Below, in pieces: positions 18,341 to 42,954 of a DNA stretch of 64,000 nucleotides (position 1 is the stretch's first letter; every line of letters begins with the position of its first letter). Under the pieces are notes generated by a model that saw only the letters and a program-made list of their open reading frames with translations, was not told the DNA's origin and did not search any database. Both the position numbers and the translations under genes were made by a program. The stretch is taken from the NCBI GenBank assembly GCA_030386875.1, contig CM059571.1, positions 30,002,355 to 30,066,354 on the forward strand, read 5' to 3'. This DNA comes from Morinoia aosen. Lineage: Eukaryota > Arthropoda > Malacostraca > Amphipoda > Talitridae.

Positions 18341-18399
18341 TATAGAACTGACTTAGTATTAAATTTATAGTTCGTGTGAAATCTTAATTAAACATGATT

Positions 18400-20684: not shown

Positions 20685-21181
20685 TTTGAATGAATCATTT
20701 GTGTGAGCATTTTATTCTAGATTCTTTACCCCTCTGATGGCTCTTTTGTTAGAGTAAAAAGTATATTGGTTGTATTTTTATCAGTTCCGTGTCATGCTTC
20801 TATTACGTATTGGAAGTATGATGAAATTATTTGAAAAAAAAGAGTGAGATAAGGAAGACGCAATGCTGGTAATTATTTTAGTGTAACAAATGCACAATGG
20901 TAATTATAATAAATGAATAACAGAGGACATCTTCATATAGAGGCACGTCGAGGACTTCTTGGGTACGTACTGTGACCTGTTGGGTACCGCGACCTGTTGA
21001 GATAAATTAGACGGCACGTAAATAATTTGACGGTCGTTGGATTGAGAGCTGCCAAGAACAGATTAAAGATTCTGAGTTAACAGATAAATAAATGCACCCT
21101 ACACCTGGATATATTCAAGACATTTGAATTTACGTTTCATGATACGGCTTTAATTTTAGGGTACGGCTAGAGGACGGGAAA

Positions 21182-21451
21182 TTACAGCCACATGTAGGCC
21201 GGTGAGGAACGTTTGGGATAAATACACCAACTTTTCTCCAAACCAACCCTCACAAAAGATCCCTTGAATTCCACGTGACGACTGTGTTGAAGAGAAGGTC
21301 GACGACAAGTCACCAGGTCGCTGAAGCGCTGGACTGCTGTGGGTGGCACTGGCTCCCCGTCAGGGTTGACTCCGTGATACAGGAGACGAGAAGTAGCCGG
21401 GTGTGGAGCAGTCGTAGAGCTGAACGAGGCAGCAGCGACGTCCGTCATCAC
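21182..21451 (-). other. 89-codon open frame in the GC-rich part of the left arm
   Basis: It starts MMTDVAAASFSSTTAPHPAT and has an intact counterpart at 41,445-41,714 with the same start and stop and 13 residue differences. No domain is recognised. Differences are spread evenly and are mostly radical, which argues against selection on the protein. The frame may be open only because the segment is GC-rich, or the segment may be a 5' regulatory part of an element. Confidence 0.3.
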
Positions 21452-22770
21452 ACCTCAGCTGTCAGCCAGTTGCCCTCTCTATAACGTCAAGCGTAGAGAA
21501 TCGTAGTACAGGTCACGGGCGTTATTAGCTGAAGACGCACATCCTGAGGGCAGCCTCGAAGAATAAACAAAATTAAAGATCGAGATCAATAAAAGGGTAG
21601 TACTTCGTGGGAACGCGTATGCGAGTTGTTAATGCGATGGATGTTGGAGTGTGTCTGAGATTGTCAGGCACGATATTTTAAGAATGGTAAGAGGCGTTCG
21701 TGCTTAAAGGGTGCTAATCGGTTTGTAAATAAGGGCACACTGAACCGAACGTCCTCGGAAAAATTTAAATGTTTCTAACTAGTTTCTTATATTTATGAAG
21801 CCTTAATACTAAATCCCGGAGTAAGAACAAATGGATTTCTTCAACGGAAATGAGCCTTCGGTAAAGCATTTGCAAAGCTTTTTCAGGTAGGAAAGTTTTA
21901 CCTTTATTTAGGATTCAGATGGATTTTGATAACTTAATACTTTTATGGCGATGTGCTCTTTAAGAATCAGATAGTGCAATAATTTAAAAATCAATTCATG
22001 CAGGAGAAACAAAAAATTACGATTGTGATGCTCCACAGGTATATAAAGAAGGCGTTATTCATACTTTATTAAATAGAGCTCATAAAGTGTGCAGTGTCTG
22101 GAAAAGTCTTCATTCAGGAATTGTTCGAGTTACAATATTGTTAATAAATAACAATTTTCTCAATACTCTGGTTGACAGGATAATCAACAACTTTTTTAAC
22201 TGAAATTTGCGAAGTGAAAATAGTCCTGGACCTTGTACACGTCATGTAAATGTATTTTACGAAAATCATTTGCACAAGAACTACAAATTTGACGAACGAG
22301 TTATCAGAAATGTTGGTTAAAATTTCCTAAGCCCTATAGATTCTGAAACTGCTATTAAAGCACGTGTATACTACAAAAATCGTAAAATCAGTGATGTCCT
22401 TGTAAAGAATAATATTTCTAGATCACAGGTCGGTGATCTAGAGAAAGCCAATGTGATTTATCAGTTCAAATGCAACGGAAGAGAATGTAAGTCGTTTAAT
22501 AAAAGTTACATTGGCATGACTAAAATGACCCTGAAACAAAGATTAACTGCGCACAATACCAGGGTTCTATTTGTAATCCCTTTCATGTCGATCATAGTCT
22601 TAAACCCTCGAATGAAGATCTTTTTTCAAATATCAAAATTTCACATCATGTTATTAAAAAAGAATATATTTAAATAATAGAAGCATTACATATCCATAAA
22701 TTTGAACCTGCCTTCAATGAAAATACTATCGATTTCTTTGCTCTAAAACTAATCAATAGGACTGTAGCTT

Positions 22771-22774
22771 TGAA
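22771..22774. other. Unoccupied site for the TIR insertion seen in the right arm
   Basis: TGAA here (TTCA on the other strand) is the single copy of the 4-bp target. In the right arm it flanks the insertion at 37,847-40,099 on both sides. The surrounding bases match across the join. Confidence 0.75.
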
Positions 22775-23007
22775 GTTTGAAACAACCGCTTGATTGTTCA
22801 TTTTGCCCTGGCGTGTGGTACCGTAAAAATCTAACTCTTGTTCAATCTCATCTAGTCATCTAGTGTATTCCTGTTGTATAAATTTATCGCCTCTATATAG
22901 TCATTTTGCATTGCAACCTGTTAGTTTTTTTATATCGTCTGATTCTGTTTTGCATTTTATTTACATCTTTTTATTGTGACTGTAAAATTTACTCAGTATT
23001 TTTCAGC

Positions 23008-23035
23008 CTGAAGATAATGTTCGTATATCGAATCC
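23008..23035 (+). ncRNA. Hammerhead-like motif, 3' end of fragment C (left arm)
   Basis: CTGAAGA, then a short imperfect hairpin (TAATGTTCGTATAT), then CGAATCC. The second core block reads GAATCC, while the mirrored copy keeps CGAAACC, so this copy is further decayed. Confidence 0.4.
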
Positions 23036-23054
23036 TTGCTTTTTAATAAATAGA

Positions 23055-23202
23055 GTGATAGCCAATTGTGTAGCGAGTGTTTTAGTAAATATGATAAACA
23101 AATTTCTTCGTCGTTTAACGCGTGATGAACTGGAAAAATTCCATGAGGTTGAGAAATTGGAAAAGAAACTATGTTCATCTATTTTGATACCCAGGAACTT
23201 AC
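23055..23202 (+). mobile_element. Start of another Penelope-like copy directly after fragment C
   Basis: The frame MIANCVASVLVNMINKFLRR followed by LTRDELEKFHEVEKLEKKLC resembles the N-terminal coiled part of Penelope-like proteins. It begins just after the 3' end of fragment C, giving the 3'-end-then-5'-start order typical of partial tandem Penelope insertions. It is cut short by the LINE on the other strand at about 23,200. Confidence 0.55.
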
Positions 23203-23558
23203 ATGAGTCGGTTTCTTCGATTTCACCTCTCCCAATTTTAATGCGTGGTAGGGATATATTTTTCTTGTGTGAGAATGTAATATGTTTGGTTTTATCGGTA
23301 TTAAGGCATATTTATTAGCTTCAAGCCACAATGAAAGTTTTTGGAGTTCGTTATTTATACTCTCCGTAATCAGAGCGTGATTTTGAATTGGAAGAACCGC
23401 AGAAAGCGTGCTGTCATCGGTAAAATATATGAATTTGAAAAATAATGTAGATTTAATAACATCATTGAAAAAAATTAGGAATAAGAGAGGCCAAGGACAG
23501 ATCCTTGTAGAACTCTATGACTAATTGTCTGTAGGTCCAATTTTGCATCGTCTATGAA

Positions 23559-23913
23559 ATAGTTTAGTTTAAGCCTTCCTAACCATTACAAAAAAGAGCG
23601 TCTCCAAGAGAGGAAAGAGGAAGGCTCCATTTAGCATAGAGATTAAGGAATGCGGAATCTACGCAGAAGGGCATAAAAACAACAAGTTGATAAAGAAGTT
23701 CATGAAACAAGATAAAAGTTGAAGAAGAAAGTAGTAGATGCTGAAAAACAGCACAGCAGTGGACCGAAAAAAGGTGGTGCTTGAAGATGATAAAAAAAAA
23801 CATTTTATTTCAACAAAAAGAAGGCCTATCTAACTCTGAGCTCGGGCCGTCACAAATTTTCCTCCTGGGAGTGCTAATTCCCATATATACAATAGTTGTA
23901 ACCCCTGAGGAGG
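23559..23913 (-). mobile_element. SINE-like retroposon, copy 1
   Basis: About 355 bp, one of four copies in the window. Minus-strand start is GCCTCCTCAGGGGTTACAAC and the AT-rich tail lies near 23,560. It sits in the LINE with an imperfect flanking duplication of about 10 bp (TCATNGACGA-like). The mirrored arm carries the same insertion, so it predates the inverted duplication. Confidence 0.65.
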
Positions 23914-24002
23914 CTCTTCATTGACAACATATTGCTTCCTATTTGTCAGGCATGATCTGAAGCAATCTTGGGCAACCCCTGGAATACATTGTAGTTTCGA
24001 GA

Positions 24003-24010
24003 GTAATATG
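24003..24010. other. Target-site duplication, 5' side of the hAT element
   Basis: GTAATATG here is repeated exactly at 27,628-27,635. Eight base pairs is the standard hAT duplication length. The unoccupied counterpart at 31,968-31,975 reads CATATCAC (GTGATATG on the other strand), one mismatch. Confidence 0.85.
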
Positions 24011-25380
24011 TAGGGTTGTGACATTGCATATAATGCATATGCAGGAAAAACGTGCATATGCAGTTAAAACTTGCATATACAAATAAAAATGCATATGCAA
24101 ATCTTTGCATATAAAATAATACCTATATAAATGAAATAGTGCATGTGAATTTGAAATAGTGCATATGCATATGAACACGGCATATCTATCTATATATATA
24201 TTAATATGCTTGTATCGTATGACTGGCGTTTGCTGTCCGTACGTGTTCGCATGTTTTCATTAACAAGATAGAGCAGTCAGTATCTATAAGACATGTCATT
24301 TTAATGTAACACATTTTACCGTAATTAAACTAATTATTGTTCTCTTTAGGGGAAAATGCGTTTGTTATGCGTCTGGAACATTTCATGATACAGTTGTTAT
24401 ACACTGCAGGGCTAGTGATCTGTCGTTAGTGCTTTACAGTGTTTCTAAGTGTTTTTGTTGGTAGTGTTTGCTCCGTTCCTGTTCATTTAATATGCTTTAC
24501 AGTGATTTCAAGATTTGTTTAGTATATATTTGCGAATGTGGATATTTACTTTTAAGATTTATTATTGCATCTAATAATTGTTGATGGTCGTAAAAAAATC
24601 AAATATTTAACAGATTGTATTTACCAAGATGAAATATATTAATCTTGAATAAAACAAAATTTCAAGGACATACTGTTTGTCATAAGTGAAGATTGTAAGA
24701 TAGCATTCGAACTAAAAACACGCTAGAAATTGTAAACAAATTACCAAATACAATGGCGCGATAAGAAAGTGCTGATCCATATAAGAGTAAAAATGAATTT
24801 TTGTTTTTTGCAAAAATAAATATTGAGCAGTTGTAGTGTCCTACAAAGGCGTCAGGAATAGTTTTTTTCTAACTTAGATTGCTAGCCTAGCATTGATTTT
24901 GAATAATACTCAGAAGGAATTCCTAATTGAGTTTTTCGAAGAAATCGACACACAATGGCGGACAAGGAGGCATAACTTTATGTTCGGTTTCTTTAGGTTA
25001 GTTTAGGTTAGTTTAAGGAGCTTGTACAGTTTCCCAGGACCGGTTATTATTTAAAGGCCAATTGACACAGACGACTTTATAAAGCACTTTTTTAAAAATT
25101 TGCGATATTTTGGAAGTTGTATGGAATAGTTGTGATTTTAGGCCTAATTTAAAAAATTAATCTCAAATATTTCTGAACAAAATTTTGTCGTTTTTGGGGA
25201 AAACAATGATAATGCAGTTAGAAACAAAGCTACGCTTTCATGTATTGTAATTTTGTGTTTGGAAATCGTATTTTGACACAACTCTGATCACAACTGCTAA
25301 ATATTAATTATATTTTGCAGACTATAGCTTTAACCCTAAACTGTCAACACTGCATATTATTATCAATTGGGTTTTGAAAA

Positions 25381-25485
25381 TGGCTAAAGTAGACAAAGTC
25401 GAACGTCTGCATGAGCTGCAACGTGAATTCAAGGAGTATCAAGTAGTAGAAGGAGGTTTATTTTGTGTTCCTTGTGCAAAAGAGG
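25381..25485 (+). pseudogene. hAT transposase exon 1 (first half of the BED finger)
   Basis: ATG starts MAKVDKVERLHELQREFKEY and ends with LFCVPCAKE, the Cys-x-x-Cys half of a BED zinc finger, followed by a GT donor (GAG|GTAAGC). The acceptor that continues it is TTTTCCCCCAG just before 25,630. This gives the DNA-binding part of the transposase, which in hAT elements recognises subterminal repeats. Confidence 0.7.
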
Positions 25486-25629
25486 TAAGCTTCCATGAAA
25501 ATATCCCAATTGTACAGATTTTAAATATACTGTCCAATAATCTATAATGTTACAGTACATAATGTTTTGGTCAAATCATTTATCAAAGTCAATGATTCGA
25601 TAGCTTAATATTGAAAAATTTTCCCCCAG

Positions 25630-27100
25630 ATACAAAGCTCCAGAAGATCCTTGGTGACCCAGCATCTGCAAACAAGGGTTCATATCAGGAACAGAGAGCA
25701 ACTCCGACAAAATGAACAAGCCGGAGATGCACAGAATAAACAAGCCGAAGAGGTACCGAATGAGCAAGCCAATTTGCAAGCAAATCCTCAACCTGGTATT
25801 AGCCAACAACCCTCTAATGAATCTGGTGGGCATTCAAATCAAACATCTGCCACCCTGCAGCCTTACAAGTGAACGGAGTTCCATGAAGACTTAACAAGAG
25901 CCTTCATAGCCACTGATATACCACTGAATAAATTCAGCAATGCACAATTGAAGGCTGTTCTGAAAAAATACACAGGCAGAAACATTCCTTACCTAACTAC
26001 TCTGAGGAAATATTATGTTGCCGAGATATTCAAAATAAAGATGAACAATATAAGGAAAAAGGCAGCTGGGCAAAAAATTTGGATATCGATGGATGAAACC
26101 ACAGACGTTGAACAGCGAGCGCTACATCGCATGTTTTGTATTTGGAGTGCTGGGAGTAGCAGAACAGAAGAAATGTTATTTAGCAAACATCGCAGTTATG
26201 CCAGTAGTCAATCATGCCACTATCGCAGCTTTCATGAATGATTCACTCAAAGTCATATATCCTGAACAAGTTCCCTTTGATCAAATTCTTCTGGCATGTA
26301 CCGATGCAGCACCATACATGGTTAAATCCATGCGTGGTATGAGTGTACTCTTTCCCAAGATGATACATGTAACGTGCTTGGCTCACGGTTTGCATCGTGT
26401 TGCTGAGTTAATCAGGACCTGTTATCCAGAGGTTAACAGATTAATTTCATCAGCCAAAAGCATTTTCATCAAGGCACCACATAGAGTCCAAAAATTTAAA
26501 GAACTGAATCCAAATGTCCTACTCCCTCCAACTCCTGTTGTTACAAGATGGGGCACGTGGCTCAGCGCAGCAAAATATTATTCCACGTACTTTGAGGAAA
26601 TAAATTCTACAGTAATGTCCTTTGACAGAGATGAAGCCACATGCATTGGTGAATGTCAGGACCTTCTTCAAGACCTCCATTTGAAAACATCACTCGTATT
26701 TATTGACGCAAATTTCTCGGCGATTGCTTCCTCGATTGAGAAGCTTGAAACTCGGGGATTAGCCATAGCTGAGGGTGTGAACAGAATTTCTAAACTGGAA
26801 GAAGATTTAAATGAACTGTATGACAAAAGATTTTATAACAAATTGGTTTCTGTGCTGTTTAAAAATGTAGGATATTCGTTGATAAAAGATGTGAATGCTA
26901 TATTGAAAGGCCAGTTATAACAGAACAACAAACAAGCTAATTCTACCAGTCACCTTAGTCCATCTGATATGGGAGCATTACTACATGCCCCACTAGTTTC
27001 ATGTGATGTCGAGAGGGTGTTTTCTCAATATAAAAATGTTCTAGCAGACAACCGTAGAAAATTCAACTTTCTGAATCTCAAATACACAGTTGTGATAAAA
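25630..27100 (+). pseudogene. hAT transposase main exon (broken)
   Basis: It opens with SRRSLVTQHLQTRVHIRN, the His-rich half of the BED finger. A Gln/Asn-rich linker follows, then FSNAQLKAVLKKYTGRNIPY and WISMDETTDVEQR, with the first catalytic Asp of the RNase-H fold. Next come ACTDAAPYM with the second Asp, CLAHGLHRVAE and VTRWGTWLSAA, ending in LVSCDVERVFSQYKNVLADN, the hAT dimerisation motif. Stops lie at 25,870 (TGA) and 26,918 (TAA), and the frame shifts near 26,117, so it is a pseudogene. The acceptor precedes ATACAAAG. Homology is to BED-type hAT transposases common in insects. Confidence 0.85.
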
Positions 27101-27627
27101 GCTTGCTTATACCTTATTATATATACCTTATTTAGAAGCACAATGATACCAATCAATTGAGTGTTGTGTTGTTCCTGTTCTTGTTACTGCTTGCGGTGTT
27201 CTAGTTGTTTCATAGTTCTTGTTATTTTGTGTGGGGATTTATAAAATATTTAAATAAAAGATAAGAGATGATAATATATTTATTAACTAACACAATCTTT
27301 TCAGGACACGCATTTCTCTCAACTTAATGCAGCTATACAAGTTAACAGATATAAATTTTGCCCATTCTAAATGCAATTTAAAGAATTATCTTCTGATGCT
27401 TGAGAATTAATTTGTGTGCATATGCAGGAATTACATTGCAATTGCTAAACGCATATGCAGTTTCAATATGCATATTAATTTCGTATGCATTAATTACTAT
27501 GCATATGCATATAATTTACTTCATACGAAACTGCATATGCATTTAACAAATGCATATAACAGATGCATATTGAAAAATTAACTGCATATGCAATGCATAA
27601 TATGCAGTGCATATTGTCACAAGCCTA

Positions 27628-27635
27628 GTAATATG
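27628..27635. other. Target-site duplication, 3' side of the hAT element
   Basis: GTAATATG, identical to 24,003-24,010. The bases after it (TTATTGCCCGCACAATCGG) continue the LINE sequence seen in the mirrored arm. Confidence 0.85.
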
Positions 27636-27831
27636 TTATTGCCCGCACAATCGGTTGCTTTTCGAAAGTCAAGAAAAACAGAGAAGACAGGTTTTCCTGC
27701 AACTATATTAGAATAAAGGTTTTATAAATGATTTAATATAGCCTGTGTTGATTTTTTTTAGAGCGAAAACCATATTGTTTATCATAGGGAAATGACTTAA
27801 GTTTCAAATAAGAATACACTACACGTAAAGT

Positions 27832-29520
27832 CATTTTTATTAAGAATGATCAAATAAAACTGAACGAACGTTTCGGACTAACTGTCCATCTTCAGCAAAA
27901 AAAAAATTCAGTAAAACGGAACCAAATAAGAGAAATTAAAGCCCAAAAGTAGTATTTATACAAAATATAAACTTTGAAAAAACACAAAACAAACAACGGT
28001 AAAAAAATATGTAAAAGATGAAGGAAAACTGAATTACGCATTGGCAACATGAAGCGGGAAAGCACTTTGGGTGTCATTGAGAGCAGGTTTCATTTTGTAA
28101 ATATACAAAGATTCGAAAAGGCGCAGATCTGTTCTGTTAGAGGTACCAGCCAAGATTTTAAAAATTATTTATGGAGACCGGAACATTGCTCTCTTCCGCA
28201 TGAGATCTAACAGAGGACGTTGAGGGGACCCAAGAGGAAGACCAGTTCTGCAACTACGCCTAGCATGCTCGAAAACTCTAGTCTTCAGGGTACGGCAGGT
28301 AGAACCAACGTACTGCGATTCGCAACGTGAACAACTTTATTGGTACACCAGAGACGAGCTCAGTGAGGGTGGCAGTTTGTCTATGAAACGAGAAAGAGAA
28401 CCAATAGTAAAATTATTCACAAGGATCATTTGAACTTTGAGTTGCGGGAAAAACTTGTTAATAAGTCATTTAACATCCTCGCATAGTTTCAATGACTGAT
28501 CTCCAAAATACGGCAACTCAACATAGGAAGCTTATTGTGCACAAGATTGAACAGATTGAGAGTTATCATAAATTTTTGACAGAAATCTATTGATATGCCG
28601 GTCAACAACAGAAGGAGGAAAGCCGTTTTTCTCAAAGTATCGTCGCAAAAAGTTGAACTCTTTGTGTAAGTATTGAAAGTTAGAACACACATTAAACGCT
28701 CTATGGACGAGAGTACGAATGCCGCAAACCTTGAAATTGTATGAACAAAAGCTGAAAAAGCTGGTCCCGAGCCTAGAAAAAGTTTTCTTTCGGAAAACGG
28801 AGCACTGAAAAGTATTGCCGACTCTCTCTACACACGCATCAAGAAACGGCAACCTATCATTTTCTTCGTCTTTCCTAGTAAATATAATATTGCTTTGACG
28901 TGAATTTAAATATTTGTGGAAAAGGTCAGCATGAGCCTTATCTCTGAACAAAACAAATGTGTCATCAACATACCGCTTGTAAAATACTGGCCTAAAAACA
29001 GGAGAACATTCTTTTAACCAGTTTTGTTCAAGGTGCACAGAAATATATTAGAAAACGTTGGGCCTAGAGGTAAACCCATGCCCAACCCATCAACTTGCCT
29101 ATAATGTTTATTATTTAAAACGAAAAACGTATTACTCACTGCCAATTTTAATACCTTTTCAACAATACTGTGAGAGAGCCCCATGAAAGTTTGACAATGT
29201 GCAAATAATTTAGATAAGCCAATTTCTATAGTTTCAAGTGAAGGTAGATTGGTAAACAAATTTTTCACATCAATCAAAGGACGCCATGAATAGCCCATCA
29301 GCATTATCAAAATTACTCAAACTATCTGCAAATGCTTTAGAATTGTCTACAGTAAAAAAGCACAACACCTCGACCCTTACCTCTTTTGATCATTACGATG
29401 TCCTTTTTTACGGCAAGATTTTTCAAAAGCATAATGTTAGATTTGGGAAAAATTGCTGGAAATATTTTGAATGGTTTAAAATTGTAATAATACCTATGGA
29501 CAACATTTATGGGAAATAAT
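27832..29520 (-). mobile_element. Penelope-like fragment B: RT and GIY-YIG
   Basis: Minus-strand frames 29,014-29,310 and 28,532-29,038 carry the reverse transcriptase: DVKNLFTNLP, then YRQVDGLGMGLPLGPTFSNI, then the catalytic RYVDDTFVLF. PFLDACVERVGNTFQCSVFR and NGFPPSVVDRHINRFLSK mark its C-terminus. The GIY-YIG part follows at 28,060-28,340 (YVGSTCRTLKTRVFEHARRS and an FESLYIYKMKPALN end). A hammerhead-like pattern closes it. An N-terminal piece lies at 30,979-31,215, separated by about 1.4 kb of other DNA. The copy is broken in several places but is the fullest Penelope-like copy here. Confidence 0.85.
27867..27895 (-). ncRNA. Hammerhead-like motif, 3' end of fragment B
   Basis: On the minus strand: CTGAAGATGGAC, AGTTA, GTCCGAAACGTT. 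GGAC pairs perfectly with GTCC as stem II, and GAAACGTT gives the second core block. The first block reads CTGAAGA instead of CTGATGA. The same sequence is kept at 31,710-31,738 and, with small changes, at 60,361-60,387. Confidence 0.55.
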
Positions 29521-30978
29521 TCCCATACAATCGTTTCCAGCGAAGAAATATAAAATTTGAAGTAAGGTTTAATTAGTCAAGGTTTTTATTAGATCCACCC
29601 TTATATCGAGTGATTTAACGACATGAACGTAATGTACACAATGAACGCAATCGCAACTCTTAATATTTAATTTCATGTACAATTTTAATTTAACGCCTAG
29701 CATTCGCTAACCAGATAATTGCCTTTTTAAAAAACACTTTATTAAGTTGGTTAAAAGTTAGGGCGAGTTAAAAGTCCGCTTATGCCGTGGGCGTTAAAAC
29801 GTTAGCAGGCGCCGTCAAGGACCACAGTCCAGGGCGCTGTCGTGGCGAGCTCGAGACAACGGGCGCAGGCAGCAATAGGAGGCGAGGAACGTCGGCTCCA
29901 CGCGAAGGACTGAATTTTAAGAACACGTTGACTCGGTTCCGTACAAAGTTGACACCTCAAGCGGTGGCAGGCAGAGGACGAGTAACGCCGCGACTCAAGA
30001 AAAGGGCTGGAATAGTCGGTAGAACCCCGCGTCGACACCTCTGGCACACGCTCCACCCTCAACTGCTATGAGACAGAAGTATTAGCGAAAGTCAAGGCGA
30101 AACGACGCAACTAGCCAGTTAATTTCAAGTATTACGCAAATGCAACCTAATCATTCAAGTCCTGCTAGATATATACCTTAAAGCATCGGAGAGGCTAGCC
30201 TGTTAGAAATAAGCTGGAACAGCTGAAACCCGGCTGCAACAACGTCAGCACCAGCTGAAGCCTCCTCCGGAGTATACTATAAAAAAAACGTACAACCTTA
30301 AACCTCAAATAAACCACGATATTAATAAGGACAATATTTCACTTAAGAATCAACATCACCAATGACAATGAAAATGACAACACAATACAAGTAAAGCAAC
30401 TAACCTGAGTTTTTAATGCACTCAGTGACGATACGTTCAGACAGAAGGTTTAATTGAGGAAATTTAGAAGAAATCAGTAAGAGATTAAGTGCTTCAAGCG
30501 GAAAGACAGTAAGAATAATTAAGAGATTTTAGATACTTGCGAAAGAAGTTAAAGTTAGAAGATCGCTCTGATCCAGGCTAATTTAGCCCATCAAAAAGAC
30601 GAACGACTTCAATAGTAATATTAATAGTAAGAGTAATTAACGTCGCGAGGACGAGTTAAGAGTTAATTCATTGAAGTTTCAATGTTAATTTTAGTTAATT
30701 TTACTTGCCTGAAGCACCATAGGAAAATTGACACGATAGTCTACAAAATAAAAGTAATGAAATAATAGCACAAGCACATAAAATAATGAACAGAGAAAAA
30801 GCAGTCAGGAAGAGGGTAGAGGGTCTTAGCCTGAACTGGGTGCCACGGAACTAGCCGCGAACCACATCACCGAAGCGTAGGCCGACGCTGCAACACGCCT
30901 TTGTAGAGGCATAAACGGACGGATAAAAATAGCAACCTAAGCACTAAGTTAACCACTGCTTAATTCGACATAACGTCA
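29521..30978. other. GC-richer insertion splitting Penelope-like fragment B
   Basis: This 1.4-kb block separates the RT core (ending about 29,520) from the N-terminal part (30,979-31,215) of one minus-strand Penelope-like copy. A GC-rich stretch at 29,770-30,060 has overlapping open frames on both strands without known motifs. Size and a TATATATC word on the minus strand would fit a solitary LTR, but I could not define end repeats or a duplication. Unassigned. Confidence 0.4.
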
Positions 30979-31215
30979 TTAAAGAGTTGAGCTAACCTCA
31001 GCTTTTAAAGTAATCAAAATAAAGTAATCAAAATCCAATCTGTGAACTGGTAAACAGAAATCTAACCCAAAAGCTAGTAGACGGCAGAGTCTATCAGACA
31101 GATGTACAGAGCTATAGTTGAAAATTACATCTTTAGGGCCGACCGGTTCCAAATGATTCACAAGACCCAATGACTGAAGCTTTCTACTGTGTGTAGCTTC
31201 AACAGTTTTTTTCAA
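30979..31215 (-). mobile_element. Penelope-like N-terminal RT segment
   Basis: The minus-strand frame reads VIFNYSSVHLSDRLCRLLAF, then GLDFCLPVHRLDFDYFILI. This matches the conserved block near the start of Penelope-like reverse transcriptases (N-L-S x n L...LL..GL.F). It is in the right orientation and order to be the front of fragment B. Confidence 0.6.
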
Positions 31216-31223
31216 AGTTAAAA

Positions 31224-31790
31224 TTGATGGTAGAGATGCAACGATTCACCAAAACACGGTCACGTTGTTGTTCAACGTTGTTCACGTTTGAATTGCGGTA
31301 CGTTGGTTCTACCTGCCGTACCCTGAAGACTAGAGTTTTCGAGCATGCTGGGCGTAGTTGCATAACTGGTCTTCCTCTTGGGTCACCCCCACTGTCCTCT
31401 GTTAGATCTCATGCGGAAGAGTGTAATGTTCCGGTCTCCATAAATGATATTAAAATCTTGGCCGGTACCTCTTACAGAACAGATCTGTGCCTTCTCGAAT
31501 CTTTGTAAATTTACAAAATGAAACCTGCTCTCAACGACACCCAAAGTGCTTTCCCGCTTCATGTTGCCAATACGTAATTCAGTTTTCCTTTATCTTTTAC
31601 ATATTTTTTTACCGTTATTTGTGTTTTTTCAATGTTTAGGTTGTGAATAAATACTACTTTAGGGCTTTAATTTCTCTTATTTGGTTTCGTTTTACAGAAA
31701 TTTTTCTTGCTGAAGATGGACAGTTAGTCCGAAACGTTCGTTCAGTTTTATTTGATCATTTTTAATAAAAATGACTTTACGTGTAGTGTA
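31224..31790 (+). mobile_element. Penelope-like fragment B, right-arm copy (GIY-YIG and 3' end)
   Basis: The frame 31,224-31,508 holds LRYVGSTCRTLKTRVFEHAG, SSVRSHAEECNVPVSINDIK and the LCLLESL end, a near-complete GIY-YIG nuclease. The tail continues with KMKPALNDTQSAFPLHVAN after one stop. The 3' end includes the hammerhead-like motif at 31,710. Homology to the left arm begins at about 31,270. It stands head-to-head with the minus-strand N-terminal piece just upstream. Confidence 0.8.
31710..31738 (+). ncRNA. Hammerhead-like motif, fragment B right copy
   Basis: CTGAAGATGGAC, AGTTA, GTCCGAAACGTT, identical in the core to the left-arm copy. The paired GGAC/GTCC stem is kept despite about 10% divergence of the arms. 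Confidence 0.55.
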
Positions 31791-31967
31791 TTCTTATTTG
31801 AAACAAAAATCATTTCCCTATGATAAACAAAATGGTTTTCGCTTTAAAAAATCAACACAGGCTATATTAAATCATTTATAAAACCTTTATTCTAATATAG
31901 TTAGAGGAAAACCTCTCTTCTCTGTTTTTCTTGACTTTCGAAAAGCAACCGATTGTGCAGACAATAA

Positions 31968-31975
31968 CATATCAC
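31968..31975. other. Unoccupied site of the hAT insertion
   Basis: CATATCAC lies in LINE sequence that runs straight through (CAGACAATAACATATCACTC). In the left arm the same position carries the hAT element between two copies of GTAATATG. Confidence 0.8.
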
Positions 31976-32070
31976 TCTCGAAACTACACTGTTAGCGCAT
32001 TCGAGGGGTTGCCCATGATTGCTTCAGATCATACCTGACAAATAGGAAGCATTACGTTGTCAATGACGAG

Positions 32071-32422
32071 CCTCCTCAGGGGTTACAACTATTGTTTCTA
32101 TGGGAATTAGCACTCCCAGGGGGAAAATGTGTGACGGCCCGAGCTCAGAGTTAGATAGGCCTTCTTTTTGTTGAAATAAAATGTTTTTATCATCTTAAGG
32201 ACCCCCTTATTTCGGTCCACTGTTGTGTTGTTTTTCAGCTTCTGCTACTTTCTTCTACAACTTTTATTTTGTTTCATGAACTTCTTCCTCAATTTATTGT
32301 TTTTATGTCCTTCTGCGTAGATTCCGCATTCCTTAACCTCTATGCTAAATGGAGCCTTCCTCTTTCCTCTCTTGGATTCGGTGTTTTATTGTGGTGGTTA
32401 GGAAGGCTAAATTAAACTATTT
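32071..32422 (+). mobile_element. SINE-like retroposon, copy 2
   Basis: It begins CCTCCTCAGGGGTTACAACT and ends in an AT-rich tail (GGCTAAATTAAACTA). It is flanked by TCAATGACGA and TCATAGACGA, an imperfect 10-bp duplication, inside the LINE just upstream of its VPQGS block. It is the mirrored partner of copy 1. Confidence 0.65.
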
Positions 32423-32725
32423 CATAGACGATGCAAAATTAACCTACAGACAATTATTTATAGAGTCCCTCAAGGATCTGTCCTTGGCCTCTCCTATTCC
32501 TAATTTTTATCAATGATATTATTAAATCTACACTAATTTTTAAACTCATTTATTTTGCCGATGACAGCACGCTTTCCACGGTCCTTCCAATTCAAAATCA
32601 CGCTCTGATTGCGGAGAGTATAAATAACGAACTCCAAAAAAATTCATTGTGGCTTGAAGCTAATAAATGTGCCTTAATATCGATAAAACCAAACATATTA
32701 CATTCTCACGCAAGAAAAATATATC

Positions 32726-35700
32726 TGTGCGCCAAGCACCATCCATGCCCCTCTTCCCCCGTTCGCCTCAGAGGTCTTATAAGCGGTGAGCTCTTTAGGG
32801 CCCGCGCATTTGGTTCGCATCCCCACCTGTACTACATCGTCACCAATAAACGTCGCCTTTAACCAGCGTGATCTCTAACCTCTGTCTGCCTGCATATTTG
32901 GTGGCCAGAGAGTTGACGGACCCACGATTTTGAGAAGATATATTTGAGAAGTCAAGAAGATATAGTATTCGACGTGTAACCTACAGAAGTTTGAGAAGAA
33001 GATCCAGTGACTTCAGGAAATCAACACGGCGGAGAAGATTACTGATAACTGCAGAGAAATTAAGAGAACTACCGAGAAGATCGTCTGGTGACGACGAGAA
33101 TTATAACTTCTAAGAAGCGATTATAAGGACAGCATCTACAGAGAGAGAGCTTCAGAGATCTACGGAAAGAGTGACCACAGACCTAAAACTACATCTACGA
33201 GGTGGTTCAGCTACGTTATCTTCGTGCTGCGGACGTAGCAGTAACGGTGCATCGCCTCCAACGACTGCAGAGATCGCGACATCGTTCGACAACGACAACT
33301 AAAACTACAATTTAAGATAAGTAACGCAGCAACAATAAGTTGTTAATTGTTACAGTACTGTTGCGGTCTAGATATTCGTTGCGTGGGAGAGACAGCGTGC
33401 AGCAGCAGTGGTAGAGTTTTTGTCAGGCAGTTTTTTTGCAATAGCCGTCGCAGATGCCACAGTGCGTGCAGGCGTCAAGGTCAAGCTAGGCTGTATTTGC
33501 AGAGTGCAAGCAGTGTGTTCAATAACCCCTAGACATGAGCTGATTTTAAGATGCTATGAGAGCTGTTTTTTAAAGTGAGTGGCGTTATTTTCTTGGAGTG
33601 TTGTTGTAAGTGAATTAACTAAATTTGTATTGATTTAGTAACTGTTGTATAAATTTGCGTTTGAACAATCTTTAAGCTCAGTTCAGCAGTGATGTTATTT
33701 GTGTAATACCAAGATACGAAACTAGTAACGTAACTATGCCTGAAGTTTCCGTAACCAGCGCGTTTGAAACGAGTACCATGACTACCACGGTTATTTTTCT
33801 TGCGTGGATATATTGGCGAAAGAGACATAAGTATCCTTATATGTTTTTTGTAGCCTGTGCAGCATTTAGGTCATTACCTGAGTTTTTTTGCTGTTTGCGT
33901 CTGGTAAGATGTTGCAGGGGGAAGTGCGTTCCAATTTGCCCAAAGGTAATGCTGAAGACCTTTGTAAAACTCAACGTTCAAGCAGTTAGAGAATAAGAGG
34001 GAAATTGTTTGCAAGAGAATCATTGCATCGTGATTTCGAGGAAGTACTACTGATCAAAGGATCAATAATTATTATTGAAAGAACAATTCGCTGTATTAAG
34101 AGGACAGGAATTGAATAAAAGATGATGTACGAGTAGTACAATGCAGTAAAATGATGTAATAATGGTGAAATATGTACTGAGAAATGCAATGTGACTTCGA
34201 GAGTTAAGGATAAATTAAAGTAGGAAGAAGTAAAGGTACTCTTCCCGAGTGAAGTAAGTAATAATGGATGTTCAGATGATACATTCCTGATGTTATTGCT
34301 CTGAGTACGAAAGAAGAAATATGTGAGAAAAATAGAGCAAAAAGAGAAGATACCGCGGCAGAGTGAATGTCCGTGAGAGAATAAATAAAGCGTTTGCAGC
34401 GCTTGGTAAAAGATACCGACAAGTCTGTGGATATATCAGGTAAATGGTTAAGGTTACCAGGTACATTTACCAGCGAGGTCGAGTGATACTGTTGAGAAAT
34501 AGTGTTGAATTAATTCGCGCAGACAATTAAGTGAGTAAGCTTTAAGAGAAGCTGTTACCGTTGATTTTCGATGGGACTCTGATTTCAGTTCATAATTTCA
34601 TGTGGTGGAAATAATATAATTGATATCATGACGGTCAGAGTTTAGCATTGTAGATTACGGTTGTCATTGTGCTGGCGAACAGAAGTACTATACGAGAGTA
34701 ATAATGAGAGGCGATAGATGCCCATTAATTAACCACATGTGGTGGTCTGGTAATTAGTTAAGAGTAACGAGTAATAAAGTTTAGAGTGTGCAGAGTGTGC
34801 AGAGCAGCACGCATAATTTCATGTGCAGTTGAGCTGCAGTGCATTGGCTCAAGGCCGCAAGTAACTAAGGCTGTACCGTCCAGCCATTGAACTCTGCCAA
34901 GGCCGTGAGCGCCGTATTTGGCTGGCAACAGTTAACAGCGTGATCATGAATATGAATATGAATAGGTGAATATTCATGAATATGACTGGTGAATAGTCAC
35001 GAATAAGATGTGTTTTGGACAATTGACGAATAATTGAATAGTAGAGACTAATTAAAAGTAATAATAAAATTTAATTTGATTTATTTCTTAGTCATTTGTT
35101 TAACGAGAAAGGCGGTTTTTAATGTTTTTTGAGCACGTATAAACGATCTAGTACGTCATACAGTCATTTTGCAAGCCTACTCGAATTTCATAGTAAGTAA
35201 ATTTGAAATTAACATAAATAAATTCATAAATTTGAAGTTAATCAGACGTAAAAGAATGTAAAATTTATCGTCAAGTCTCCCAAAGTTTCTACGGGATAAC
35301 TTACAACTGATTGAACGATTAAAATTTTGAGTGTTTACCGTCAATATTGATTTTTACCTTGACAACAAATCGTGTTTTTACCTTATGTATTCAATTGTGT
35401 CTTTTTGTTGTATTTGCTTATGCTTCATGTTAACCTCGCATACGCTTTAGTATTTACCTTTTTGATTAAGGCATTAACGTCACGCGATATGTGAAATGTA
35501 AAGTAATCGTTTACAGTATAAAGGTTTAACAATTACAGAATAACAATTTTCTCATGTTCTTTTGTTAAAGCCGCACGTTTTGCGAGAATTGACGACTTTG
35601 CACATATTTAAAACTTTTTTGCCGTGCATTGTCTGAGAAAGGTTCAAGAACGCACTCTCATGTCTCGTTGACAATATGCTGAATTCACACTTTAAATATA

Positions 35701-37359
35701 TATTCGAAAATTCTAGCGACATCCGGTTGCTGATGGCAAGGTTTTAACACGGAGACATTGTTTTCGATCTCTCAGCAAATTAAATGCCTATTCGGAATTG
35801 AGCTGATCTTTATTGAGTAGGCATTCATTCTCTGAGAAAGTTTAAATGATAATGAGAGACTTGTTCTTGTTGGACATTTAAATCATCGACTCAAAGTTTT
35901 AAGAATGTTTCCTTGTCATTAACTAAATAGTTAGATTCGGTAAAGGATCACTCTGACACTAAAGGTGTTTCTCAATTTACTTTATTCAAGCATTCATGTA
36001 CTAAATTTTGCGCTTTAACCATGCTAATCTTCTCGTATTGTTTCCAATTTCAGGTCACACGTGTGCGAGCAGTAACACAACATCTTGTAACACGGTAACG
36101 CGCAGTCAACAACTTAAGCGCGCAGTCAACAACGCGTGCAGTTTTCCCATACTAACTAGGGATAATTCACCTTCGTGAAAGGGAAGGAGAACAACGGTGA
36201 ACCATTGATAAGGTGAACCATTGATAAGGTGAACCATTGACTTTAAATACAAAATAACTCAACTTGAAAAAGAGATGTTCTGCTTGAAAAGAGATGTTAT
36301 TTTCTACGATGTTACTTTACCATGTTCGTAGTGTTGCCAACGTGGTTTAAGTATATTTAGAAACTTGAAAGTAGGTAATTATAAATTCAGTCGTTCAAAA
36401 TTATGGACTTTGTTTACATTTTATTACTATTGGATTACGATAATTTGAAACGGTTTACCCAATTTCCATATTCATACTTGATGTTTCAAACTAGCGTGTG
36501 TTTGATTTTACTACATTTTTTCTTATATCATACTCCGCATTCTATATCATTACGTTACCGATAGAATTAAGTTTTACGAGTTTTACGGCACTCTTTTTAT
36601 TCTGATTGGTTGTTTTACTATTAGTGGAAAAGTTCCGTTGTAATTTGTGCGATGTTTGGATTTAACATTATAAAAATTAATAAGAATAACTTTAATTAAC
36701 ATCTATTCTGAAGTCTACGGAAACGCATACGACAATCTAACGTCAACATTTTTTCTTTTTGGTGAAAACTTTATTGATTCTTTAATTTGATTACCATTTA
36801 GATTCATTACCATTACTGCACTCATTTTTCATTACCTACGGGGTAATAGTTTTCGAATAAGATTTTCCGAGATTGTTTTGCCTAGGAACTCGTATTTTAC
36901 TTTGCAGTTAACCTATTTATGCGTTACTATAATCTTATAATCAATAGATTTATTTAGTTGCTAGTAGTAATACTTGTGTGTATGCGTGACTTTACTAACG
37001 TCAAGTAACGATGTTCAAGCAAATTGAGGATGTTTACTGTAGAGGTAATTTTTGTTGTCACGTTTCCGAAATTACCCATGTGATTACCTGATGTCGAAAT
37101 TGTTTGTTAATTTTTTTTTGTTATTATCCGCCCGAATAATATTTTTTTTTTTATTTATAATTGAATACCTATCCGGGTAAAGGGAGGAGGTATGTGCGCC
37201 AAGCACCATCCATGTCCCTCTTCCCCCGTTCGCCTCAGAGGTCTTATAAGCGGTGAGCTCTTTAGGGCCCGCGCATTTGGTTCGCATCCCCACCTGTAAT
37301 ACATCGTACCAGTAAACATCTCACTCAACCAGCGTATTCATAACCTCTGTCTGCCTGCA
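32726..37359 (+). mobile_element. LTR element of 4.6 kb without pol
   Basis: Direct repeats of about 169 bp (32,726-32,894 and 37,193-37,359) start TGTGCGCCAAGCACC and end CTGCCTGCA. They are flanked by TATATC on both sides (32,720-32,725 and 37,360-37,365). A polypurine tract (AAAGGGAGGAGG) immediately precedes the 3' copy. The 4.3-kb interior has no gag or pol frame. The two LTRs differ by roughly a tenth, so the insertion is fairly old. It lies in the LINE of the right arm only, so it postdates the inverted duplication. A fossil, probably always dependent on another element. Confidence 0.85.
36196..36241. repeat. Three tandem 16-bp units
   Basis: GGTGAACCATTGATAA is repeated almost exactly three times in the interior of the LTR element. 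Confidence 0.8.
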
Positions 37360-37582
37360 TATATCCCTACCACGCATTAAAATTGGGAGAGGTGAAATCG
37401 AAGAAACCGACTCATGTAAGTAGTTGGGTATCAGAATGGATGAACATAGTTTCTTTTCCAATTTCTCAACCTCATGGAATTTTTCCAGTTCATCACGCGT
37501 TAAACGACGAAGAAAATTGCTTATTATATTTACTAAAACACTCGCTAAACAATTAGCTATCACTTTATTTATTAAAAAACAC

Positions 37583-37610
37583 GGTTTCGATGTACGAACA
37601 TTATCTTCAG
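37583..37610 (-). ncRNA. Hammerhead-like motif, fragment C right copy
   Basis: On the minus strand: CTGAAGATAATGTTCG, TACAT, CGAAACCGT. The second core block (CGAAACC) is better kept than in the left arm. Stem II is weak. Confidence 0.4.
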
Positions 37611-37853
37611 GCTGAAAAATATTGAGTAAATTTTACAGTAACAATAAAAAAATGTAAATCAAATGCAAAACAGAATCAGTTGATATAAAAAACTAACATG
37701 TTGCAATGCAAATTGACTATATAGAGGCGATAAATTTATACAACAGGAATACACTAGATGACTAGATGAGATTGTACAAGAGTTAGATGTTTACGATACC
37801 AGAAGAAACGGCAAAATGAACAATCAAGCGGCTGTTTCAAACTTCAGGACACA

Positions 37854-38889
37854 CCCAGGTAGCAAAATTTATTGACCTAATATTGAGCAAATATACAGTC
37901 TCAATATTGACTGGATATTCAAAATGAACATTGGGGCAATACCTTATTTTGGAAAATTCTGTTGATATAAAAAAATATATTGGCCCAATAATAATATTAT
38001 CATCAACCCAATATCAACTAATTATTGTGTCAATATTGACTTGCTAATGAAGTGTTCCCTACAATAACATTGCCTTAGTACTCAATTCCTGAAAAATATA
38101 GCCCCGATATTGATAATTTCACTAACTCAATATTAGCCAATTATTCTGTCACTATGTACCTGATATTGAATTGTTCCTTAGAAAATTTTAGCCTCTAAGG
38201 CCTGGAGATGTTGCTGCTTTGGCAACTGAGACCCGCTTACGGTGAGGGTAGTAACGACCGTTGTTATGTACTCGCACTTCTCCTAGAGTTAGTACGGGTG
38301 TTTTTTGTTAACTTTTAACCACTTTTCTCCAGGATAATTTTACATTCACACGTATTAGTATTACTGAACACAAATGTACTAGAACTGAGTTTGAGGGGTA
38401 ACTAAGGAAGGGTACTACAGGCCCAATACTTATTTTCTGACATCAAGTGGATATTGGTAGAATATAGTGTCCCAATCATAATTTATTTTTAACCCAGTAT
38501 CAGCTAATTACTGTGTCACTATTGACTTGATATTGAGGTGTTTCCTTAAACAAATAACTCCGTATTATTGGCGTACAATATCAACCCAATATTTGGGCAA
38601 TAATAAATTATATGCTAACAAATTTCATTAAATTGCGAGATTTTTAATTATTATGAGATAGTTTCCACTTATATGAATATCGTACATATATATATATACA
38701 CTGTTAGTTTAATATTAGAAATAAAACTATTTACTACGTTGTCCTAATAACAAGTTGATATCATAAATAAATACATCTTATTTCGATATTGCCTTGTTAT
38801 TAGCCTATTATTTTAATCCAAGATTCCAATATCAGGTCAATAAATAATTATCAACCCAATATTGGCCTAATAATTTTTTGCTACCTGGG
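37854..38889. mobile_element. Nested 1.04-kb TIR element rich in AATATTG words
   Basis: It starts CCCAGGTAGCAAAATT and ends AATTTTTTGCTACCTGGG, inserted in the terminal repeat of the element above with CA on both sides, which may be a 2-bp duplication. The interior is full of CAATATTGA, CCAATAT and ATATTGG words on both strands, apparently a long run of subterminal binding sites. No coding sequence is seen. Family unknown. Confidence 0.7.
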
Positions 38890-38903
38890 CAGTCTGGGTA
38901 GAA

Positions 38904-40080
38904 ATCAGGATATGTGTTGATTTTCTGTTTTCATATGCATCTTATAGAGGATTTTCTTGCGCTTCCATTGGTACTTTCCGTTCACGTCTACTCCGAATAG
39001 TGCGCCCACCAGAGGGGGGGAAAGCGATGGGGGTGGAGTGACCTTGAACCCTCCCCTCCTTATTATTGGGGGTCAATTGAGCGTGTTTCTCTGCGGGAAT
39101 AGCATTATAGTTCGTTAATGGGCTACTCAAAGTGCTTCCATTACTCAAACGAAACATTCTAACGCTGAGTAAATATTTTTTTATAATTTTCGACAATTTC
39201 AGAATTGAGCTGTTCTGCCGTATCAATGATACCGCAGCTTTCATTCATAGCCCGATGACAGCTGCAGTATCATAGCTACAGCTATGGCGAGCACACCAAT
39301 CCAAAGGGCTTGAAAAGAGCTATAAAACATAGGAGTTGACTTGAGAAAAAACGTATTTTGGTTGAAAAAAAATGAATATATAAAATAAGTGGTTGTTTTG
39401 AAGAATTACACGTATTGTCTTTTGTTGTATATATTTTCCCAGAGTTACAGAGCTACAGCAATGTAAATTATATCAATCGAAAGGGCTTGAATACTCCGAA
39501 TAGTGCAATAGTGCGCCCAGGCGGAAAAGAGCTACAAACACTCAAGAGTTTATTGTAGAAAATCCTGAAGTTCAAAAGATAATAAGAATAACAATTTTTT
39601 TTTGAAAAAACATGTTTTTCTGGAAACTTGATAATTGCTTTCTCAAATTTATCTCCTTCCACAATTTTAGAGCTACAAGAATGGTTTATTTACAATTCTT
39701 TAGGGCTTAGCAAGGTGTATCCATGAACAATAGCATTTTTCAATACATTTGTTATTTTGAAAATTACACCACATGAAAAAAAAAATGAAAAAAAGGTCAT
39801 TTTATATTTTTTTGATTCCCAATATCCACAAAAAGAAGTTATCGAAATTCCCTATTGCTTATGGTTATATAGACATATAAGCAATCTAAAAACGAAGTAC
39901 TGGTTCTGTAACTTGAAAATTGTAGAAGGAGATAGGTTTTACAAAAACCCCTATTTTATCATATTTTTCGAAAAAAAAGTGCAGCTACAAAAATTTCGTC
40001 AAAATAACAAATGATCTATGCATCATTTCACACGTACTGTGAAAATTTCAGAGAAATCCATCCATAAATAACCGCCTTTT
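38904..40080. other. Interior of the 1.2-kb TIR element
   Basis: No gene is supported. Short frames at 38,942-39,244, 39,468-39,662 and 39,757-40,014 have no recognisable motif, and the last is a low-complexity Lys/Phe-rich frame. Confidence 0.4.
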
Positions 40081-41444
40081 TTCTACCCAGACTGTGTCCT
40101 TCAGAGCTACAGTCCTATTGAATAGTTTTAGAGCAAAAAAATCGATAGTAGTTCCATTGAGGGCCGGTTCAAATTTATGGATATGTAATAATTCTATTAT
40201 TTAAATATATTCTTTTTTAATACATGATGTAAAATTTTGATATTGGAAAAAAGATCATTCGAGGGTTTAGAACTATGATCGACATGAAAGGGATTACAAA
40301 TAGAACCCTGGTATTGTGCGCAGTTAATATTTGTTTCATGGTCATTCTAGTCATGCCAATGTAACTTTTATTAGGCGACTCACATTCTCTTCCGTTGCAT
40401 TTGAACTGATAAATCACATTGGCTTTCCCTAGATCACCGACCCTGGATCTAGTAATATTATTCTTTACAAGGAGATCACTGATTTTACAACTTTTCTAGT
40501 ATACACGTGCTTTAATGGCAGTTTCTGAATCTATAGGGTTTAGGAAATTTTGAACAATATTTCTGATAACTCGTTCGTCAAATTTATAGTTCTGGTGCAA
40601 ATGATTTTCGTAAAATACACATACATGACTTGTACAAGGTCCAGGACTATTTTCACTTCGCAAATTTCAGTTAAAAAAGTTGTTGATTATCCTGTCAACC
40701 AGAGTATTTGGAAAATTGTTATTTATCTGTAATATTTCAACTCGAACAATTTCCGAATGAAGACTTGCCCTGATATTGCACACTTTATGAGCTCTAACCA
40801 ATAAAGTATGAATAACGCCTTCTTTATATACCTGTGGAGCATCACCATCGTAATTAATTGTTTCTCCAGCATGAATTGATAAACATCTGATCTTTAAAGA
40901 GCACATCGGCTTTAATAGTATTAGGTTATCAAAATCCATAGGAATCCTATATAAAGTTAAAAAGCCTGAAAGGTAAAAAGTTAAAAAAAGTTAAAGTTGA
41001 AAAGCCTGCCTGATAAAGCTTTGCAAATGCTTTACCGAACGCTCATTTCCGTTGAATAAATCCATTTGTTCTTACATGGGGATTTAGTATTAAGGCTTCA
41101 TAAATATAAGTAACTTGTTAGAAACATTTAAATTTTTTCCGAGGACGTATGGTACAGTATGCCGTTATTTACAAACCGATTAGCACCCTTTAAGCACGAA
41201 CGCCTCTTACCATTCTTAAAATATCGTGCCTGACAATCTCAGTCAGGCTCCAACATCCATCGCATTAACAACTCGCATACGCCTCCCACGAAGTACCACT
41301 TTTTTATTGATCTCGATCTTTAATTTTGTTTATTCTTCGAGGCAGCCCTCGGGATGTGCGTCTTCAGCTAATAACGCCCGTGACCTGTACTACGATTCTC
41401 TACGCTTGACGTTATAGAGAGGGCAACTGGCTGACAGCTGAGGT

Positions 41445-41714
41445 GTGATGACGGACGTCGCTGCTGTCTCGTTCAGCTCTACGACTGCTCCACACCCGGC
41501 TACTTCTCGTCTCCTGTATTACGGAGTCGACCCTGATGGGGAGCCAGAGCCACCTACAGCAGTCCAGCGCTTCAGCGACCTGGCGACGTGTCGTCGACCT
41601 TCTCTTCTACACTGTCGTCACGTGGACTTCAAGGGATCTTTTGTGAGGGTAGGTTTGGAGATAAGTAGGTGTATTTATCCCGAACGTTTGTCACCGGACT
41701 ACATGTGGCTGTAA
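41445..41714 (+). other. 89-codon open frame, right-arm twin
   Basis: It starts MMTDVAAVSFSSTTAPHPAT and ends PDYMWL, with the same length, start and stop as the left-arm frame at 21,182-21,451. There are 13 differences in 89 residues and no gap. No domain is recognised, and coding status is doubtful. Confidence 0.3.
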
Positions 41715-42273
41715 TTTCCCGTCCTCGAGCCGTACTCTAAAATTAAAGCCGTATCTTGAAACGTTAATTCAAATGTTTTGAATATTTCTAGGTGTAGGGT
41801 GCATTGCCTTATTTGTTAACTCAGAATCTTTAATCTGTTCTCGGCAGCTCTCAATCCAACGACCGTCAAATTATTTACGTGCCGTCTAATTTATCTCAAC
41901 AGGTTACAGGACCCAACAGGTCACAGTACGTACCCAAGAAGTCCTCGACGTGCCTTTATACGAAAATGTCCTCTGTTATTCATTGATTATAATTACTATT
42001 GTGCATTTGCTCCACTAGAATAATTACCAGCATTGCGTCTTCCATATCCCACTCTTTTTTTTCAATAATTTCACCATACTTCCAGTACGTAATGGAAGCA
42101 TGGCACGGAACTGATAAAAATAAAACCAATATACTTTTTACTCTAACAAAAGAGCCATCAGAATGATAAAGAATCTAGAAAAAAGTGTCACACAAATGAT
42201 TCCTTTAAAATTTAACAAATACTGATCTTTCAAACTGATTTAAAATAGGTTTCGTTTTAAAAATGAACAGAGA

Positions 42274-42417
42274 CTCCAAAATTTGCAATTCCGACCACAA
42301 ATTTGCGTTGGCTATGACTTTGAAACTATTTTTCTTGACTGCTGTGTCGCATTCAAGAAAAATAGTTTCAAAGTCATAGCCAGGGCAAAGATGTGTTCGG
42401 AATTGGGGATTTTAGAG
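42274..42417. repeat. Foldback hairpin at a Penelope-like fragment
   Basis: Arms of about 65 bases (42,274-42,338 and 42,354-42,417) pair through GGCTATGACTTTGAAACTAT and its complement, with a 15-base loop. The right arm is sense Penelope sequence (FKVIARAKMCSELGILELLF). The left arm is an inverted copy of it, so this is probably a target-primed snap-back event. Confidence 0.7.
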
Positions 42418-42600: not shown

Positions 42601-42619
42601 CACGAGTCTTTTAGTCTCG

Positions 42620-42787: not shown

Positions 42788-42954
42788 AATAAAAGCACGT
42801 ATTTAATAAAAGGGTTAAGTTTTCGCGTTTCTAGCATAAATAGTAAGAAATCATAAAATTATTACCACGAAAAATATTGCATTTCAGTATTAAATTCTGC
42901 AGCCACTGCATTGACAAGCATATGTGATAGACACTGTACGAGTATGTCGGCTCT

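Follow-up and report, generated by a model that had tools for sequence, protein, structure and literature searches.

How did two long mirror-image arms come to lie next to each other in a stretch composed mostly of mobile-element debris, and do they make up a transposable element or the scar of a rearrangement? We addressed this question in a 64,000-bp stretch of the Morinoia aosen genome (C16:30002355-30066354; hereafter the window, to which the positions below refer), in which a preliminary description made from the sequence alone had noted a large inverted duplication. The searched genome comprised 1.99 Gb in 29 contigs, and the best 40 candidates were scored per query, so old, strongly diverged copies may have escaped the searches. 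The structure is likely a rearrangement of a known class, for which a retrotransposon dimer was the likely seed, rather than a mobile element in its own right. The history that we favour, with a probability of roughly 0.6, is a one-off, old and small deletion plus inverted duplication, which was seeded by inverted repeats and joined by repair.

Equal mirror-image arms at two loci

The two arms, delimited by self-BLAST of the window and by a four-arm alignment, carry parts of a long interspersed nuclear element (LINE) and of a Penelope-like element (PLE):

20680-28338, plus strand: left arm, probably the copy; its LINE part (minus orientation) holds inserts D, E and G; outward PLE end
31274-42214, minus strand: right arm, probably the template; mirror-image order, LINE in plus orientation

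Self-BLAST gave four inverted blocks, namely 20680-22775/42214-40099 (90.1% identity, bit score 2413), 22771-23259/37846-37359 (93.3%), 23253-24011/32725-31967 (90.6%) and 27627-28338/31976-31274 (92.3%). All four are colinear, and the segment beside the PLE inverted repeat is thus present twice, in opposite orientations. The best inverted score in five mononucleotide shuffles of 20680-42214 was 42.5 bits, as against 2413 for the real arms. Once the insertions are subtracted, the matched arms measure 4,044 bp (left) and 4,056 bp (right), second copies of target-site duplications (TSDs) included, which bears out the earlier proposal of arms of about 4.0 kb that become equal without their insertions; the outer ends then proposed, 20685 and 42210, were correct to within 5 bp. 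A wider duplication was considered and rejected, the flanks 15680-20680 and 42232-47232 sharing one weak 109-bp match (64%) in direct orientation.

The whole structure exists a second time. The window from about 5.9 to 55.7 kb (about 5893-55701) matches C16:28.96-29.02 Mb, inverted and about 1 Mb away, and this segmental duplication (SD) contains the entire inverted duplication; its blocks are mostly 95.8-97.5% identical, with one short block at 92.8%. We aligned the window arms (WL, WR) with the SD arms (PL, PR), excluding insertions. The window arms were about 92% identical overall (WL-WR, 3701/4007), and across the SD the corresponding arms matched at 3629/3746 (WL-PL) and 3920/4056 (WR-PR) positions. 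Of the informative sites, 168 placed each window arm with its SD counterpart, four placed the two arms of one locus together and one was crossed. PL was poorly cut around its deletion beside the hAT-like element, and 23800-27818 was therefore masked for the final distances; the unmasked misalignment (segment 'LINE d', 73 sites) had inflated two distances to 0.032 and 0.082, which became 0.027 and 0.079, and the masked site counts were 167:3:1. With the mask in place, the Kimura distance between arms was 0.083 and 0.079, as against 0.027 and 0.035 for the SD copies. Hence, the sites and the distances together indicate that the arms arose once, before the SD, and with no sign of mutual conversion since; gene conversion between the arms, which we considered, is unsupported by either site count (168:4:1, or 167:3:1 masked). 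Judged from the distances, the SD would be roughly 30-45% the age of the arms.

The insertions, some with long terminal repeats (LTRs), terminal inverted repeats (TIRs) or a likeness to short interspersed elements (SINEs), are as follows:

20830-21846: insert D in the LINE, both arms, from genome copies; 7-bp TSD GAAATTA/GAAATGA read by eye
21973-23170: insert E in the LINE, both arms, from genome copies
23571-23914: insert G, a SINE-like short repeat, both arms; related to 59336-59679 and 60473-60807
24011-27627, plus strand: hAT-like element, left arm only; 8-bp TSD GTAATATG, end sequence TAGGGTTGTG; also in the SD copy
32726-37359: LTR element, right arm only; TG..CA ends and TATATC as TSD; the SD copy shows its exact empty site
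37847-40099: TIR element with TTCA on either side, confined to the right arm; also in the SD copy
37854-38889: nested insert inside the TIR element; not in the SD copy

The last four are the insertions that the preliminary description had subtracted, and they are real: their edges were checked, the empty sites of the hAT, LTR and TIR elements were read in the opposite window arm, and that of the nested insert was read in the SD copy. The SD divides them by age. The hAT and outer TIR elements are older than it, since both are present in its copy; the LTR element is younger, since its exact empty site is found there, and so is the nested insert, which is missing there. The chronology first put forward (a PLE/LINE/SINE-like mosaic, one inversion-duplication, then insertions) accordingly stands, the single duplication being supported by the 168:4:1 sites, and is refined in its last step, which the SD splits in two. 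The hAT-like element gave a DUF659 match (E 2.2e-4, below the cut-off), a domain that we take to be linked to hAT. Insert E is presumably a PLE-like fragment, judged by motif; a Pfam scan of its stretch 22321-22677 gave no match. Elsewhere in the window (59319-61156), two inverted copies of repeat G (83%) lie beside pieces related to the PLE end.

Both loci have also received insertions of their own. The SD copy carries an insertion of about 6.5 kb in its right arm, near window position 32327 (C16:28983829-28990371), parts of which are about 69% similar to the interior of the window's LTR element. Outside the arms, the window carries an insertion of about 8.7 kb (45761-54491) with TG..CA ends, flanked by ATAT and bounded by direct repeats (45758-47535 and 52714-54491; 1,778 bp, 99.9% identical). 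It is missing from the SD copy and is therefore a young LTR-type insertion; it contains tandem repeats of about 108 bp (50986-51315).

The second locus also bears on two rival explanations. Long inverted repeats are able to mislead assemblers, but an assembly artefact is hardly credible here, because differences at about 8% of sites and four insertions set the arms apart, and because the SD copy shows the same architecture with its own mutations. The suggestion that the whole might be a composite foldback transposon with 4-kb inverted repeats, as a spacer flanked by long inverted arms would invite, was not borne out. A 1-kb query from the outer left end matched four places at more than 90%, namely both window arms and both arms about 1 Mb away, and queries across the outer ends found crossing matches at the window locus and the SD copy only, among the best 40 candidates each. 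Of the two loci with such ends, the second is thus an SD that reaches far past the arms on both sides; moreover, the two outer joins sit in different sequence and look repair-like, and no TSD was seen by eye around the whole structure. We regard a foldback transposon as very improbable.

The interrupted LINE and its Penelope-like core

Both arms consist largely of one host LINE, whose two parts outside the left arm are in the same orientation:

19538-20682, plus strand: 5' part of the host LINE, from genome copies; same orientation as the right-arm LINE
31787-42231, plus strand: reverse transcriptase (RT) and downstream part of the LINE, right arm with inserts, from genome copies

The left-arm segments 20681-20829, 21847-21972, 23171-23570, 23915-24011 and 27627-27820 belong to one LINE, since they are contiguous in genome copies such as L035, and the LINE is interrupted by D, E and G in both arms. 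The 5' part is presumably endonuclease-like, judged by motif, and a Pfam scan of 19598-20044 gave no match. The window has an RVT_1 match within 32464-32862 (E 5.8e-5, below the cut-off), and one frame of the LINE copy L047 matches RVT_1 at 3.6e-33. Fifteen LINE loci were examined for the distance between the points matching 20682 and 31787. It was 257-259 bp, on one strand, in nine of the eleven copies that allowed both parts to be placed, in a count that excluded a distant second RT match in L034 (2553) and an opposite-strand pair in L031. Given this spacing, the window is without about 258 bp of the LINE and has the left arm and the PLE in their place. This amounts to a deletion on the far side of the inverted repeat, for which 11 genome copies, and not an unrearranged allele, are the standard. 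The right-arm LINE reaches 42231, which is 17-21 bp beyond the left-arm limit. This longer extent and the spacing in 9/11 copies are the reasons why the right arm is taken as the original. No continuation of the LINE past 42231 was found in the window at E 1e-3 with the downstream sequence of L028, L031, L035, L041 and L043; the L031 matches in that search were to its own second, inverted LINE copy. In L031, the inverted pair (1-788 and 1438-2222; 89% over 793 bp, about 650 bp apart) may represent a further inverted duplication that involves this LINE family.

The outer limits of the arms are marked by two further features:

20680-20684: left outer join of the LINE 5' part to the inverted LINE, read by eye; at most 3 bp (TAA) in common to both sides, and 1 bp assigned to neither
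42238-42453: 216-bp palindrome just outside the right arm, a truncated inverted dimer remnant of another repeat; proposed copying stop

The left outer junction thus has little homology, at most 3 bp. The palindrome, whose repeat we take by its motif to be PLE-like, folds as single-stranded DNA at -77.8 kcal/mol (z -17.7). Its arms match at 89/108 bases, that is, less well than the duplicated arms, which fits a palindrome that predates the duplication. A related palindrome of 682 bp, 97% self-complementary, is found in L040 (1213-1893). An Rfam search of 17000-46500 at gathering thresholds gave no match, and thus no support for a suspected hammerhead-like motif near 42570-42610.

Between the LINE parts lies the PLE core:

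27819-31261, minus strand: PLE body, interrupted, 5'-truncated at 31261, from genome copies; 3' end leftward, without the usual terminus of about 22 bp
31262-31276: 15-bp filler at the PLE head-to-head join, read by eye; repeats of adjacent bases
31277-31786, plus strand: inverted truncated PLE partner, equal to 27819-28338 reversed; 3' end rightward, same terminus missing

This is a head-to-head dimer with both 3' ends pointing outward. Its frame at 28532-29047 had no Pfam match; among genome copies, L059 gave RVT_1 (E 0.0022) and GIY-YIG (E 0.038) and L070 gave RVT_1 (E 0.023), all below the cut-off, and a PDB sequence search with two PLE proteins found no match for one and weak matches only (E 0.08 and above) for the other. 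The ends of the dimer are abnormal. All 17 genome PLE ends displayed, duplicates among them, run on into a terminus of about 20-22 bp, in some followed by a tail, and the first 11 bases of the terminus follow exactly at 186 of the 338 exact PLE ends in total. Both window ends are cut about 22 bp short and enter the LINE at the identical base. The arms therefore share one PLE/LINE join in mirror image, as had been claimed, and 37 scored matches elsewhere all end at the PLE end; among the best 40 candidates, crossing matches were found at the window locus and the SD copy only.

Inverted PLE dimers are common in this genome. They are present in many of the loci L050-L059 and also in L072 and L073, and among 100 listed of the 338 exact ends there were 11 outward pairs within 3 kb, with duplicates possible among them, and no inward pair. 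Two end pairs with equal 515-bp spacing, 3.1 Mb apart on C1 (13044266-13044800 and 16190120-16190654), are perhaps one insertion copied by another segmental duplication. Inverted terminal copies, a short TSD and an optional tail are found at normal genome insertions and not at the window copy; direct TSDs of about 8-12 bp follow the terminus in the dimers L050, L051 and L055 (by eye). We compared the flanks of seven apparently independent two-ended dimers:

L050; L051+L053; L055+L056; L072; L073; L063+L066+L067; L065: the seven dimers compared

This set left out the one-ended dimers L052, L054, L058, L059 and L071, and its last two members are less clean, with a further PLE piece nearby. In none of the seven does the inverted match reach further than about 70 bp past the point that corresponds to the window PLE end. 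The approximately 3.5 kb of inverted flank thus makes the window locus exceptional among the PLE dimers seen. Since head-to-head dimers are frequent, their inner joins varied and, in those seen with both flanks, the flanks not duplicated, the inverted PLE pair most likely came first.

These observations also weigh on the view that the locus is a generic inverted duplication, made by fold-back priming or a microhomology template switch, in which the 28338/31277 join arose in the same event and the PLE pair played no part. The 15-bp filler of adjacent repeats at the inner join, of a kind that end joining can also produce, is in keeping with it. So is the roughly constant identity of the arms up to their inner edge; the near-equal divergence of the PLE part and of the arms overall (K 0.076 vs 0.081) counts for the favoured history too. 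However, dimers with varied inner joins are frequent, one of them (L072) likewise with a repeat-like filler, and those with both flanks visible lack flank duplication, so we consider this view rather unlikely. PLEs do make head-to-head copies, and in Adineta vaga a host gene flanked by the pseudo-LTRs (pLTRs) of a PLE is reported to have been copied to a new site (PMC3846280), which counts for a third route: a transcript reading from the PLE into the LINE mosaic would have been reverse transcribed and inserted head-to-head beside its source. The copy would, however, have to insert no more than a few hundred bp from where it was transcribed and coincide with the 258-bp deletion, and the PLE ends are without the usual terminus, with no TSD seen around the whole. 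Such retro-copying is improbable.

How the structure may have formed

In the favoured history, a LINE in plus orientation would have collected D, E and G as well as a PLE, the latter in its frequent form of a head-to-head inverted dimer. About 258 bp of the LINE would have been lost when DNA broke, or a replication fork stalled, immediately to the left of the PLE, and the broken PLE end may then have paired with the inverted PLE copy on the right, over about 510 bp. Synthesis would have proceeded outward across the PLE/LINE join and through about 3.5 kb of the LINE mosaic, ending about 25 bp short of the 216-bp palindrome, and end joining would have linked the new end to the LINE 5' part across no more than 3 common bases. 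The resulting copy-number order would be 1 (LINE 5' part), 0 (258 bp), 1 (PLE), 2 (mosaic) and 1. The hAT and TIR insertions followed, next the SD that placed a second version of the locus about 1 Mb away, and then the LTR and nested insertions. The arms, the joins, the missing LINE sequence (as judged from genome copies), the abnormal PLE end common to both arms and the order relative to the SD are observed, whereas pairing through the PLE repeat, the direction of copying and the palindrome as its stop are inferred. Two breaks followed by recombination of one PLE copy with the other would be an equivalent route to the same product.

Several points weigh against it. The ancestral order is derived from repeat copies rather than from a sister species or an unrearranged haplotype, two of the eleven LINE copies give spacings of 269 and 226 bp, and the LINE 5' part and the right-arm LINE could be separate insertions of one family. 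A plain template switch inside the PLE would look alike, which makes the role of the PLE repeat ambiguous, and the palindrome as a stop is suggested by a distance of about 25 bp that was noticed after the fact. The flanks of normal dimers were viewed in seven cases, mostly over 0.2-1 kb. With regard to the order of events, the two LTRs of the LTR element differ by 7.6% (BLAST), which alone would imply an age greater than that of the SD; the differences lie mostly past position 115 of about 170, clustered near one end, and for dating this element we trust the exact empty site in the SD copy over the LTR divergence.

The case concerns repeat debris and is resolved to the base: arms, likely seed repeat, lost segment, both joins and later insertions are all readable, and the SD copy serves as an internal clock. 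To the preliminary description it adds the SD around the locus, the right-arm LINE reaching 42231, the PLE dimer at the core and the missing 258 bp or so. A broader reading, which we put forward only tentatively and think doubtful, is that in PLE-rich genomes head-to-head PLE dimers repeatedly seed a deletion together with an inverted duplication of the DNA beside them, either by repair over the dimer or by PLE reverse transcription copying the flank. If so, PLE activity would leave a class of lasting germ-line inverted duplications. Searching genome-wide for PLE dimers with one abnormal flank common to both ends may reveal whether retrotransposon dimers drive inverted duplication.

Comparison with known systems

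A literature search on Penelope with inverted duplication or break-induced replication listed no paper whose title resembles this mechanism, and one that combined long inverted repeats with other terms listed no paper. Like fold-back inverted duplications (PMC3907307), the locus has inverted arms around a spacer, whereas its spacer consists of 2.9 kb of retrotransposon sequence and probably had inverted ends beforehand. With PLEs that bear inverted pLTRs (PMC3846280, PMC11167929), it shares the inverted layout and, at normal genome copies, a short TSD and an optional tail, as well as a putative RT plus GIY-YIG-type element, for which the domain matches in genome copies were below the cut-off; unlike them, the window dimer ends without the terminus and has a 3.5-kb inverted duplication in place of a TSD. 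The duplication-triplication/inverted-duplication (DUP-TRP/INV-DUP) rearrangements at PLP1 have inverted repeats as the substrate of a replicative template switch (PMC4352052), as is proposed for the window locus, but the window has a deletion and a single inverted copy, with no triplication.

The closest parallel in form is human Factor 8, at which a deletion and an inverted duplication are separated by copy-neutral DNA (1-0-1-2-1); inverted repeats hold one junction, while homology at the other is slight or absent (PMC10766186). The window locus shows the same deletion, copy-neutral stretch and inverted duplication, with a junction of little homology and another that probably lay in inverted repeats already present. 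It differs in spanning a few kb, in being old and in that a single retrotransposon insertion supplies both inverted repeats as its two halves.

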